The notes under the pieces were generated by a model that saw only the letters and a list, made by a program, of their open reading frames with translations, did no database searches and was not told the DNA's origin. Of a DNA stretch of 33,466 nt, positions 29,681-33,117 are shown one piece after another. The position numbers and the translations under genes were made by a program. Origin of the DNA: Puniceicoccaceae bacterium (lineage in GTDB: Bacteria; Verrucomicrobiota; Verrucomicrobiia; Opitutales; Opitutaceae); NCBI GenBank assembly GCA_007695295.1, contig REEB01000171.1:1-33466 (forward strand), read 5' to 3'. Numbering within the stretch: position 1 is the first letter of the stretch; every line of letters starts with the position of its first letter.

Positions 29681-31081
29681 ATGGCCACTTCTCCCCCCAT
29701 CCTTCGCGTCAGTCCGAACGCCCGCCACCTCCAGTCCGCCGACGGCCGACCCTTTTTCTTTCTCGCCGACACCGCCTGGGAATTATTCCACCAACTCGAC
29801 CGCGAGGAAACGACCCACTACCTTGAGGACCGTGCGGCCAAGGGGTTCACCGTCATCATGGCGGTGGTGCTGGCCGAGCGCGACGGCCTCCGCAAGCCCA
29901 ACGCCTACGGTGAGATCCCACTGCTCGACCTCGACCCCGCCCGGCCCAATCCCCGCTATTTCGAGCACGTCGATTTCGTCGTCGAAAAGGCCGCCGAGCT
30001 CGGCCTGGTGATTGGGATGCTGCCCACTTGGGGTGACAAGGTAACCGATGCCCTCGGCGGAAGCGGCCCGGTCATCTTCAACCCCGCCAACGCCCGCAGC
30101 TTCGGCGCCTTTCTCGGGCAGCGCTACCGCCACCGGCCACTCATCTGGATTCTTGGCGGCGATCGCAACATCGACTCCGACCCCATCCTGGAAACCTGGA
30201 GGGCCATGGCGCACGGCCTGCGGTCGGGCGACGAAGGTCGCCATCTCATCACCTTCCACCCCCGCGGCATGCAGACGTCGAGCTGCTGGCTGCACAACGA
30301 AGACTGGCTCGACTTCAATCTCTACCAGTCCGCCCACCTCCGGAAGTATCAAAGGGTCTACGATTTCGCACTAAACGATTACCTGCTTCAGCCGCCCAAA
30401 CCCACCGTCGAAGGAGAACCGGCTTACGAGGACATACCGGTCCACTTCTGGGTTTACATCGACTGGCAGACCGACCCGGAGGTGCGCCGCAATGTGCTGG
30501 ACGACGACAACCTCATCCGCGACCCCGGCTATTTCGAGGAGGGCTTTTTCGACGCCGTTGACATGCGTGTCCACGCCTACTGGAACCTCCTGTCGGGCGC
30601 CTGTGGCTTTGCCTACGGCAACAACGCCGTCTGGCAAATGCTGCGCAAAGGCGAAGAGCCCGCCATACCCACGCTGTGCGACTGGCGGGATGCGCTCGAC
30701 CGCCCGGGCGCACGGCAGGTTTCATTGATCAAGGCGCTCTTCCTCTCCCGGGATTTTTCCCGACTGCGCCCGGACCAAGCCGTCGTTTACGGACCCAACC
30801 CGCACGATGAAAACCATGTCCGCGCAGCCTCGGCCGAGGATGGATCCTTTGCCCTTGCCTACCTCCCTCAGGGCAAGTCCATCATCGCGGTTTTGGGCAA
30901 GATCGCCGGACCGCGCGTCCGTGCCTGGTGGTTTGACCCACGCTGCGGAGAAGCCCTTCCGGCCGGCGCCTTCGAAAACCGCGGACACGCCACCTTCGAG
31001 CCACCGTCCTCGGGACATGGCCATGACTGGGTGCTGGTGCTCGAAGATGCCTCCGCTTTCGACAAGCCGCCGGGGGCCTGA
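29681..31081 (+). CDS. DUF4038 / GH140-like glycoside hydrolase
   Basis: 466 residues. The N-terminal barrel has the DUF4038 (apiosidase-like, GH140) beginning FFFLADTAWELFHQLDREET, then KGFTVIMAVVL, GMLPTWGDKV and IWILGGDRN. The C-terminal part from about 385 (FALAYLPQGKSIIAVLGKIA, VRAWWFDPRCGEALP) matches the small collagen-binding-like domain that usually accompanies DUF4038. GH140 enzymes cleave apiose from rhamnogalacturonan-II; the substrate here is not established. No signal peptide is visible, so the enzyme may be intracellular, acting on imported oligosaccharides. The gene is 59 bp after gmhB. Confidence 0.88.
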   Translation: MATSPPILRVSPNARHLQSADGRPFFFLADTAWELFHQLDREETTHYLEDRAAKGFTVIMAVVLAERDGLRKPNAYGEIPLLDLDPARPNPRYFEHVDFVVEKAAELGLVIGMLPTWGDKVTDALGGSGPVIFNPANARSFGAFLGQRYRHRPLIWILGGDRNIDSDPILETWRAMAHGLRSGDEGRHLITFHPRGMQTSSCWLHNEDWLDFNLYQSAHLRKYQRVYDFALNDYLLQPPKPTVEGEPAYEDIPVHFWVYIDWQTDPEVRRNVLDDDNLIRDPGYFEEGFFDAVDMRVHAYWNLLSGACGFAYGNNAVWQMLRKGEEPAIPTLCDWRDALDRPGARQVSLIKALFLSRDFSRLRPDQAVVYGPNPHDENHVRAASAEDGSFALAYLPQGKSIIAVLGKIAGPRVRAWWFDPRCGEALPAGAFENRGHATFEPPSSGHGHDWVLVLEDASAFDKPPGA

Positions 31082-31233
31082 CCCAAGCCTTCGCCCCGCG
31101 GCGCCGGTCGGCCAAAACGCGATCCCCGCACCCCCTCCGCTCGCCAGATGGGACACTTTGCATGCGCAATGAGCGCTCCGGGGGACCCGCTTTGCATTTG
31201 ACCCTCATTCGCCGACGGCAGAACGTTTCCGCA

Positions 31234-32247
31234 ATGTCTCCTTCTGCTCCGACTCTCACCGAGAGCTTCTGCCGCGATCTCGCCCCGGACAACCTCACCT
31301 CACGCAGGACCCAGCGCTACCGGGGCGGAGGCTTTCACCTTTCCCTCGCCACGGACTGCACCGTCGACGAGCGGGAACTGCTAACCCGGCTCTATTCAGC
31401 GACGGGCGAAGTCATGCGGCTGACCGATCCCGCCCTCGCCGACAATCCCCTCCGGGAAGGACAAATGGTCGACATGGCGCGCCGCTCCGAGCTTCATTTG
31501 CTCGAAGAACAACTCCTCGCCTCGATCCGTGAGATCGCATCTTCCCGATCCGACAGCGTGCGCAAGGCCTTTCTGCGCCTCGCCACCGGGCCTTTTGCCA
31601 GCATGTGCGAGTACTTCCTCCTCATCCAAGCCGGTGGAGTTGAGAAGGAGTACATTCAAACCCTCCACTACCTCGCACGGGATCATCGCAAAATCATGCG
31701 GGCGTTTTTTGAGGATCTCGACCCCCCCACCCGCAAACACGACACCGCCATCCGCCAGCATTCGCTCGACCTGCTGCTGGAAAAGTGGCGCACCGGCCTT
31801 TTCCGCAGCAAGGACCACCCCCTCATCATCCGTTTCCAGACCTTCTACCATGGCACGGTCGCGGAACGTTGCCTGGAGTTTGCCGAGCTGGACCAGATCT
31901 TCTACCAGCTCGCCCACAATTGCCTGCGGTTCTCCTCCACCCAAGTCCTCGACATCACGGTGCTGCTCACCGGAGACGGCCGCAATCTGCGCTGGATCTT
32001 CAGCAATGCCATCGCTCCGGACCACGCCGCCAAACTCCAGGCCATCCTCGACGACGGGCTCAATCCCTTCGAGCACGGCGTCGCCACGGGTGACGGCGAA
32101 GGCCACGGGCTCGGCTTCGTCGGCGAGGTCGTCGTCCATGCCTTCGGGCTCTCCGACCTGTACGAAGCGCTCAAGAAAGGGCATCTCGGCATAAGTGTCG
32201 CCAAGGATCGCTTCCTGCTCTGGTTTCACTGGCCGGCCGTGGCCTGA
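31234..32247 (+). CDS. Divergent HATPase-type (histidine kinase-like) protein
   Basis: 337 residues from the ATG at 31234; an ATG at 31162 adds 24 non-conserved residues. The C-terminal third looks like a GHKL ATP-binding domain. An N-box-like YQLAHNCLRFS has H228/N229. The strand-loop LLTGDGRNLRWIFSNAIAPD replaces the usual DNGxG motif with S-N-A. It is followed by NPFEHGVATGDGEGHGLGF, a G2-like lid, and a final strand pair (GHLGISVAKDRFLLWFHWP). The N-terminal region is helical with no membrane segment. The phospho-accepting His of an H-box is not obvious (candidates HYLARDHRK or TRKHDTAIRQ). It could be a soluble sensor kinase or a non-catalytic HATPase protein. No response regulator is adjacent. 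DUF2237 follows after 8 bp. Confidence 0.6.
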   Translation: MSPSAPTLTESFCRDLAPDNLTSRRTQRYRGGGFHLSLATDCTVDERELLTRLYSATGEVMRLTDPALADNPLREGQMVDMARRSELHLLEEQLLASIREIASSRSDSVRKAFLRLATGPFASMCEYFLLIQAGGVEKEYIQTLHYLARDHRKIMRAFFEDLDPPTRKHDTAIRQHSLDLLLEKWRTGLFRSKDHPLIIRFQTFYHGTVAERCLEFAELDQIFYQLAHNCLRFSSTQVLDITVLLTGDGRNLRWIFSNAIAPDHAAKLQAILDDGLNPFEHGVATGDGEGHGLGFVGEVVVHAFGLSDLYEALKKGHLGISVAKDRFLLWFHWPAVA

Positions 32248-32255
32248 GTCCTCCC

Positions 32256-32633
32256 ATGTCACCCAACGAACCCCGCCCGAAAAACGTCCTCGGAGGCCCG
32301 CTCAAAGCCTGCAGCCTCGATCCAGTAACCGGGTTTTTCCGCGACGGCACCTGCCGCACCTGTCCGGAGGATGTCGGCTCGCACACGGTTTGCGCCGAGG
32401 TGACGGAGACTTTCCTGGAGTTCTCTCGGAAGGCCGGCAACGATCTATCCACTCCGGTTCCCGCCTATGGGTTTCCCGGATTGCGGCCCGGCGACCGTTG
32501 GTGCGTCTGTGCGGAGCGCTGGCTCGAAGCACTTGAGGCCGATTGTGCTCCGCCGGTCATCCTCGCCGCCACCGCGGAGGCAGCCCTGGAAAGCGTTCCT
32601 TTGCCGCTCCTTCAGAAGCACGCCACCGCCTGA
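32256..32633 (+). CDS. DUF2237 family protein
   Basis: 125 residues, a single DUF2237/COG3651 domain of unknown function, widespread in bacteria and also found in some eukaryotes. Conserved features: NVLGGPLKACSLDPVTGFFR, DGTCRTCPEDVGSHTVCAEV, GNDLSTPVPAYGFPGL and GDRWCVCAERWLEA. There are several conserved cysteines (CRTC and CVC pairs), suggesting a metal or redox site; this is inference. It starts 8 bp after the HATPase-type gene, so the two may be cotranscribed. No clear Shine-Dalgarno sequence. Confidence 0.93.
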   Translation: MSPNEPRPKNVLGGPLKACSLDPVTGFFRDGTCRTCPEDVGSHTVCAEVTETFLEFSRKAGNDLSTPVPAYGFPGLRPGDRWCVCAERWLEALEADCAPPVILAATAEAALESVPLPLLQKHATA

Positions 32634-32799: not shown

Positions 32800-33117
32800 A
32801 TGAGACCATCAAGTCTCGAAGACATTAAGCCGCAGAAAACATTCTGCCCTCATTGCAAAAAAGATGTCGTGCCCCACATCCTTGATTCCCCGCTTGGTCA
32901 ATCCGAACCACGGGCGCAAATCCTGGGAGTGACGCAGCCTCCGGTGGAGCCCATGCACCTTTATTATGCAGAGTGCCCCCAATGCCACCATCGCATCTAC
33001 TCAAAAATTGTTGATGAGTTAAACAATCCCGCACGGTCGATTGACTGGATGAGCTGGTTGATCGTGGCCGCCGCACTCGGCGCCATGGTCATGCTCTACT
33101 TCGCTTTCAACCGCTGA
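32800..33117 (+). CDS. Small zinc-ribbon membrane protein
   Basis: 105 residues, no family recognised. Two CxxC pairs, FCPHCKK (near residue 15) and CPQCHHR (near 60), could form a zinc ribbon on the cytoplasmic side. A single C-terminal helix (MSWLIVAAALGAMVMLYFAF) would anchor it in the inner membrane. The gene is markedly lower in G+C than its neighbours by eye, suggesting recent acquisition or relaxed codon use. In the 166-bp gap upstream, a TTGACA (32729-32734) could be a -35 box without a good -10. Function unknown. Confidence 0.75.
   Translation: MRPSSLEDIKPQKTFCPHCKKDVVPHILDSPLGQSEPRAQILGVTQPPVEPMHLYYAECPQCHHRIYSKIVDELNNPARSIDWMSWLIVAAALGAMVMLYFAFNR

Follow-up and report, generated by a model that had tools for sequence, protein, structure and literature searches.

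A soluble pseudo-histidine kinase encoded beside a DUF2237 gene, and its probable kinship to the sensor half of ECF anti-sigma factors

Few bacterial pseudo-histidine kinases are understood, and the example that we found is DivL of Caulobacter. According to the available part of its description, the phospho-acceptor histidine of DivL is replaced (Tyr550) while the other histidine kinase motifs are retained, and the transmitter is reused as a sensor (PMC4211667). Soluble sensors also occur in another class of bacterial regulators: as far as the accessible text of that account goes, ChrR is the zinc anti-sigma factor that belongs to ECF11 in the response to singlet oxygen (PMC6852236). Pseudo-histidine kinases such as DivL and anti-sigma factors with soluble sensor domains are both, then, known already. 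In the open-access literature we found no report of a histidine-kinase-like sensor joined to an ECF anti-sigma factor.

The gene described here occupies 31234..32247 (+ strand) of the window, by which we mean the whole stretch of DNA analysed: 33,466 nucleotides, positions 1 to 33,466 of contig REEB01000171.1 (assembly GCA_007695295.1), from a Puniceicoccaceae bacterium of the Opitutales. A preliminary description, made from the letters alone, had placed a 337-aa protein there, and the frame is indeed open and intact; its predicted fold identifies it as a soluble pseudo-histidine kinase gene. An alternative in-frame start at 31162 would give a protein of 361 aa; the start at 31234 agrees with the beginning of the nearest relative (L002/L051, 43% identical). 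After a gap of 8 bp, downstream and on the same strand, comes the DUF2237 gene that the same description had reported (32256..32633, +, 125 aa; Pfam PF09996, E=6.9e-54), and this spacing makes it likely that the two genes form one operon. The genes upstream encode, by Pfam, a PfkB-type kinase, a HAD hydrolase and an apiosidase-like protein. Among the window neighbours scanned with Pfam, no two-component or sigma genes were present: no response-regulator family was matched, and no cognate sigma gene adjoins the pseudo-kinase gene. The genome contains a single match to the window protein and a single DUF2237 gene, which is the neighbour.

Three further open frames lie close by. The one directly upstream of the pseudo-kinase gene (29681-31081, +) combines an Apiosidase-like catalytic domain with Collagen_bind_2 and is probably unrelated. 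Farther downstream, 32800-33117 (+) encodes a protein of 105 aa that has two CxxC pairs and, at its C-terminus, a hydrophobic segment; its best Pfam match is zf-LITAF-like (2.1e-5). An antisense frame of 288 aa (31396-32262, -) covers the pseudo-kinase gene; we do not count it as a gene but as a mirror ORF in GC-rich coding sequence.

The fold of the window protein was predicted with AlphaFold2 from a 38-row family alignment (A3), giving a model with mean pLDDT 89 and pTM 0.88. Its layout is a helical N-terminal part, a DHp-like hairpin and an alpha/beta domain in Bergerat order, with disorder at residues 283-290, in the lid. In the model the N-terminal region (residues 1-105; 31234..31548, +) is mostly helical, as had been proposed, and it matches no Pfam family above cut-off. 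The DHp-like helices, assigned by DSSP of the model, comprise residues 107-158 (31552..31707, +) and align to YycG from its residue 384; the CA (Bergerat/HATPase-like) domain, delimited by the model and by structural matches, spans about residues 173-334 (31750..32235, +). Foldseek returned 117 PDB matches to the model at E<=0.001, and the 50 that were listed all belong to histidine kinases or close relatives of these. Residues 107..336 align to residues 384..610 of ADP-bound YycG (Z 14.1, rmsd 3.6, 195 aligned), a structural alignment score tied within 1 with those of several other kinases.

Sequence searches started from the window protein returned little. At E<=10 its Pfam search gave DOG1 alone, at 0.067 and below the cut-off of that family, with neither HATPase_c nor a PAS domain matched; NCBIfam and a phmmer search of PDB sequences gave nothing usable, and the mixed alignment A3, used as the query, likewise found no match in the PDB. 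The HATPase order of the C-terminal part, which the preliminary description had read from the letters, is thus borne out by the predicted structure, in which the Bergerat fold is present, and by homology to proteins that do match HATPase_c; a direct match of the window protein to that profile was sought and did not appear. On the strength of the model, we regard a Bergerat-fold CA domain in this protein as well supported. The preliminary description had named a predicted structure lacking that fold as an outcome that would overturn it, and this outcome did not occur.

The H-box is absent, as had been claimed. In the A3 column that holds histidine in 19/19 H-box rows, the window protein has Leu114 (31573..31575, +). 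The structural alignment begins with model residue 107 on YycG 384 and, provided that its first residues contain no gap, places this leucine at YycG residue 391, the phospho-acceptor histidine of that kinase. In phosphotransferases of the ChpT/Spo0B type the phosphate is carried by the DHp histidine, and in the window protein that histidine is likewise missing, the column being Leu114. Other elements of a nucleotide site are in place. The N-box asparagine is retained as Asn229 (31918..31920, +; alignment A3), the N-box-like HN of the preliminary description being His228-Asn229, and the G2/lid glycines, GDGEGHGLG at residues 286-294 (32089..32115, +), are seen in sequence, alignment and model. 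The G1 motif DxGxG is missing and SNAIAPD stands instead, with Asn258 (32005..32007, +) at the position of the Asp by comparison with ThkA and in A3. This absence had been noted before and taken to mean a degenerate ATP-binding core, a reading that goes too far: asparagine fills the column in 19/19 H-box rows, and ThkA, with asparagine there too, is found with ADP and Mg in PDB entry 3a0t. Because the asparagine is a family trait and is present in ADP-bound ThkA, the G1 change need not abolish nucleotide binding, and by itself it does not show that binding has been lost. The telling change is the loss of the histidine rather than the change at G1.

To place the protein among its relatives, we rely on several searches of differing depth. 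A first scan of genome contigs with the single window protein found no relative; a second, with alignment A2, gave 52 loci, in Opitutales/Opitutia, Chloroflexota (Chloroploca, Oscillochloris, Viridilinea, Herpetosiphonaceae, Roseiflexaceae), Myxococcota and a few others. This contig scan used the pattern ERCxE[FL][AS][EA][YIL]D, so that the invariance of residues 211-220 in its hits is partly selected and is not evidence; L051, L058 and L059, which came from other searches, differ from the pattern at these residues. Reading 51 of the loci (the fragment L111 was left out) gave 20 with an H-box, 3 short forms lacking the histidine and 28 of a long type, some of them partial. By tblastn the window protein reaches the H-box members L063 (7e-49) and L064 (1e-45), with E-values relative to the candidate stretches. 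Four of 57 related genomes contain the family, the window genome included. Across the order, a family profile matched 41 of 372 genomes, from which four matched by the anti-sigma part alone (G224, G230, G355, G013) were dropped; the 37 counted comprise 30 with long forms and 7 with short forms, 2 of these 7 being H-box forms. Among 387 genomes of the phylum 5 matched, 3 of them found before.

An unrooted maximum-likelihood tree of 46 rows (44 different) resolves three clades. The first holds 21 H-box rows (support 100/97), 12 of them labelled Chloroflexota, with an H-box of the HDLRGG type; the second holds six short rows without the histidine, including the window protein and L051 (94/88); the third holds 19 long rows, mostly from Opitutales (100/100). 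The soluble, kinase-like H-box proteins, to which the window protein is homologous, have an architecture in which an N-terminal helical region with RYxGG is followed by DHp and then CA. Since histidine kinases in general also possess the H-box, we infer on this unrooted tree that it is the ancestral state, and the loss of the histidine would therefore have been a single event. The membership of the first clade in the kinase superfamily is visible in sequence: HATPase_c matches 18/19 H-box members at E<=1 (best 7e-10, with L064 exceeding the curated cut-off), and a profile of these members finds histidine kinases in the PDB (best 1.2e-5).

Within A3, whose 38 rows are 19 H-box, 4 short His-less and 15 long, the motifs appear to be lost in steps. 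The H-box column is histidine in 19/19 H-box rows and Leu, Tyr, Tyr and Arg in the four short rows, and the 15 long rows have no H-box, a lone histidine in this column of 1/15 standing without the following Asp or glycines. The tree places two more short rows in this clade, and in these too the histidine is missing, which makes it absent from 6/6 rows of the window clade. The N-box asparagine (229) and Gly292 of G2 are each present in 19/19 H-box, 3/4 short and 0/15 long rows; the G1 residue is asparagine in 19/19 H-box and 3/4 short rows and alanine in 13/15 long rows. Judged by these residues, most members of the window clade keep the nucleotide site while the phospho-acceptor histidine is replaced, and the long clade has lost its ATP motifs.

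The surroundings of the H-box and short forms vary. Ten neighbouring proteins from seven H-box loci, in a scan that left out L063, L079, L081 and L058, included no response regulator and had no common theme; three of the ten matched nothing. At L080:1114-2976 a gene for a GAF-GAF-SpoIIE phosphatase comes after an H-box relative from Viridilinea, hinting at partner switching. Two short His-less forms are each followed by a homologous gene (L035:4983-5684 and L036:6896-7558; 233 and 220 aa, in overlapping frames) and, in both genomes, by a DUF3392-type gene, an arrangement that could reflect a partner pair.

The long clade differs in what precedes the kinase-like part. Residues 9-70 of one member (L103) match an NCBIfam anti-sigma factor model at 2.2e-6, below the whole-protein cut-off of that model. 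The same profile segment matches four other proteins; the two of these that were scanned both carry RskA_C after it, and one of the two has an ECF sigma gene alongside. At all 13 loci read, of the 30 long-form genomes, an ECF sigma gene directly precedes the long-form gene (Pfam-confirmed in two), and the long-form frames are mostly full length. The model of a long-form member is weaker than that of the window protein (pLDDT 75), with one Foldseek match at E<=0.001; its C-terminal part still finds histidine kinase CA domains, the best, a match of moderate quality, being GacS (Z 9.7, rmsd 2.6, 120 aligned). Neither the anti-sigma domain nor a long-form member occurs in the window protein and window genome, respectively, and the best-scoring match in that genome to the ECF sigma of these clusters is 30% identical. 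One long-form gene (G288:C34:38030-39248) was matched as two overlapping pieces, which looks like a frameshift and may be an assembly error, and another long-form locus (L085), on a contig labelled Longimicrobiales (Gemmatimonadota), falls inside the Opitutia rows, through either transfer or a mislabelled MAG contig.

Around the sigma gene the same families recur. Over the 13 loci we counted SRPBCC-like (12), DUF2071 (12), flavin amine oxidase-like (12), 2OG-Fe(II) oxygenase (11), DUF6268 (10), pirin (8), glutathione peroxidase (7) and SOUL heme-binding (7) genes, with family names taken from one member per group and the Pfam match behind the SRPBCC-like name weak and below cut-off. At one locus (L054:7946-10892) HDOD, pirin, 2OG-Fe(II) oxygenase and SOUL genes stand in a row beside the ECF sigma cluster, and the row recurs in other long loci; our literature search found no paper on such a cluster. 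Searches by dyad counts, alignment and patterns gave no convincing ECF promoter motif shared by the clusters. Exact dyads were common to at most 4 upstream regions, compared with 3 in shuffles. The block GGTTG occurs in 14/57 target regions against 9/41 others (shuffle mean 7.5, maximum 14) and is therefore not enriched, although to the eye it had seemed shared; GTCAAG (7/57 against 0/41) gave the sole p<0.05 of seven patterns, at an uncorrected p=0.04, and shuffles reached 9. The two together occur in 3/57 regions, 0/41 others and no shuffle, with all three instances before one gene family, too few to call.

The link to DUF2237 is also a feature of the long clade above all. DUF2237 genes are present in 92/372 genomes of the order, in 33/37 with the pseudo-kinase family and 59/335 without; the corresponding Fisher value of 1.8e-18 takes no account of kinship and should not be relied on as a probability, since a single family (f2) supplies most of the long-form genomes. 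In 26/30 long-form genomes the DUF2237 gene lies within 5 kb of the long-form gene, and in 5/13 long loci read it is directly upstream of the ECF sigma gene. Among the seven short-form genomes it is that close in one, which is the window genome; in others it lies 12 kb and 45 kb away on the same contig. The link to DUF2237, for which the preliminary description had proposed adjacency in relatives as a check, is real but unlike the one imagined there: proximity is common among the long forms, and the direct pairing with a short form was seen in the window genome alone.

What DUF2237 might bring is suggested by work elsewhere. In the portion of that study available to us, it is reported to be over-represented among phototrophs and among prokaryotes that carry a rhodopsin, and knocking it out in Synechocystis reduces phototaxis; the same portion contains no link that we could find between DUF2237 and a pseudo-kinase or ECF sigma factor (PMC5932025). 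In the order, a rhodopsin is present in 11/37 family-bearing genomes and 36/335 others, a comparison that ignores kinship; restricted to the long clade, the difference does not reach significance (7/30 against 40/342, p=0.08). The window genome contains a photolyase, and no rhodopsin was found in it with the model that matched 47/372 genomes of the order. From the content of the clusters and the co-occurrence with DUF2237 and rhodopsin, we draw a light or oxidation theme with moderate confidence for the long clade; for the window protein the same evidence gives a faint hint of one.

The neighbour may also be a coincidence. That the DUF2237 gene is incidental, and the window protein unrelated to light or oxidative stress, is the rival that survives best, and we consider it a serious if minority possibility. 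It fits the single short-form genome in seven with DUF2237 within 5 kb, and the H-box relatives, whose scanned neighbours (10 proteins, 7 loci) share no theme. Against it stand the 26/30 long forms with DUF2237 within 5 kb, in clusters with glutathione peroxidase, SOUL, pirin and flavin-oxidase-like genes, and the fact that the copy in the window is the sole DUF2237 found in its genome.

A second question is whether the protein still transfers phosphate. Over the 38 rows of A3, 24 columns are invariant, 6 of them inside the scan pattern; the 18 outside it are R28, G31, Y54, R149, D150, K153, R156, D163, D170, H176, L180, K184, W185, G207, Y224, G319, W333 and P334. None of these is the H-box histidine, the Mg-type N-box asparagine, the G1 residue or a G2 glycine. 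R28 and G31 belong to an RYRGGG motif (residues 28-33; 31315..31332, +), and both are invariant in 38/38 rows. His176 (31759..31761, +), outside the ATP motifs, is invariant in 38/38 rows and in all three clades. An unorthodox active kinase or phosphotransfer protein could bind nucleotide through the retained N-box asparagine, lid glycines and family G1 asparagine, much as ThkA with its G1 asparagine is seen with ADP and Mg in the PDB, and could pass the phosphate to another residue, of which the invariant His176 would be an example, or to a partner protein. We consider this unlikely. In the model His176 belongs to the strand that opens the CA domain and not to a DHp helix; it is kept equally in the long rows, which have neither the N-box asparagine (0/15) nor G2 (0/15); the H-box histidine is missing from 6/6 window-clade rows; and the window neighbours scanned include no response-regulator family.

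The proximity of sigma factors raises the question of direct binding. SpoIIAB and RsbW consist of a lone CA domain without DHp and bind sigma, and a GHKL protein of this kind, restraining a sigma factor by direct contact, would suit the ECF sigma gene found beside the sister clade at 13/13 loci read. In the window protein, however, DHp-like helices precede the CA domain, and no sigma family appears among the window neighbours scanned; in the sister clade itself the simpler candidate for binding sigma is the anti-sigma domain, which the window protein lacks. Such a role is accordingly improbable.

Last, we asked whether the forms without histidine are under selection. The window gene has no relative close enough for the measurement, and it was made on the related His-less pair L060/L061, whose dN/dS is 0.05 (NG86) or 0.07 (YN00), a sign of strong purifying selection. 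The long pair L096/L103 gave 0.07 (NG86) and 0.12 (YN00), and three H-box pairs 0.12 to 0.29 (NG86); six pairs were compared in all, with YN00 values for four and no valid dS by NG86 for L102/L106. The His-less forms behave as functional genes. That the gene is functionless and decaying, surviving in few genomes, would accord with its patchy spread (4/57 genomes including its own, 37/372 of the order) but is very hard to credit given the dN/dS of 0.05-0.07 in the short forms, the 24 columns invariant over 38 rows (6 inside the scan pattern) and the intact frame in the window. The preliminary suggestion of a pseudokinase or unusual soluble sensor is in this way upheld by the histidine kinase fold, the lost histidine and the conserved coding frame, and we regard the identity of the window protein as a pseudo-histidine kinase as well supported.

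Overall, these data lead us to favour, with rather better than even confidence, a soluble pseudo-histidine kinase that signals by conformation and not by phosphotransfer and that is related to the sensor part of an ECF anti-sigma factor. In this scheme the kinase-like module would sense a signal, for which light or oxidative stress is a possible source, and change shape; the signal would be read by residues conserved outside the ATP site, with nucleotide binding perhaps serving as a gate. In the long clade it would be the fused anti-sigma domain that lets the sigma factor go when the shape changes. In the window organism the output would pass by contact to a separate partner, for which the DUF2237 protein is a candidate. 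Of this scheme the signal, the partner and the output are inferences. A bolder version, which we put forward tentatively, is that the whole family shows a kinase exchanging one output for another. Phosphotransfer would be the starting point; the window clade, as a His-less sensor that binds nucleotide, would be the middle stage; and the end would be an anti-sigma factor whose sensor half has a dead ATP site. The conserved residues that include R28, R149, D150, K153, R156, D163, D170, H176, K184 and W185, with others, would then form a second, non-ATP site that reads a ligand related to light or oxidation, with DUF2237 in the pathway.

Three stages of loss seem to persist together within one family, and DUF2237, a phototrophy-linked gene of unknown function, gains a regulatory setting that can be tested. 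The end point reached in the long clade joins two-component kinases with ECF sigma/anti-sigma pairs, which are normally separate. Among described proteins, ThkA (TM1359, Thermotoga; 3a0t) resembles the window protein in its G1 asparagine and CA fold (Z 12.2, rmsd 3.2, 145 aligned), but ThkA is a working kinase with its histidine, whereas in the window protein the H-box histidine is gone. DivL resembles it in combining the histidine kinase fold with a replaced histidine (4q20_B: Z 12.1, rmsd 2.9, 141 aligned). In the accessible part of its description DivL contains PAS domains, and its binding partner is the response regulator DivK (PMC4211667), whereas the window protein shows no PAS match; unlike DivL, it has asparagine at G1, and its sister clade carries a fused anti-sigma domain. 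ChrR, as far as the available text describes it, is built like the long clade, with an N-terminal anti-sigma domain and a C-terminal soluble sensor controlling an ECF sigma factor, but its sensor is a zinc-binding cupin-like domain where the long clade has a pseudo-kinase module (PMC6852236). The window protein, unlike ChrR, has no anti-sigma domain. Finally, in RskA-type anti-sigma factors the segment before RskA_C, in the two proteins scanned, resembles the long-clade N-terminus, whereas RskA_C itself is unmatched in the six distinct long-form proteins scanned.
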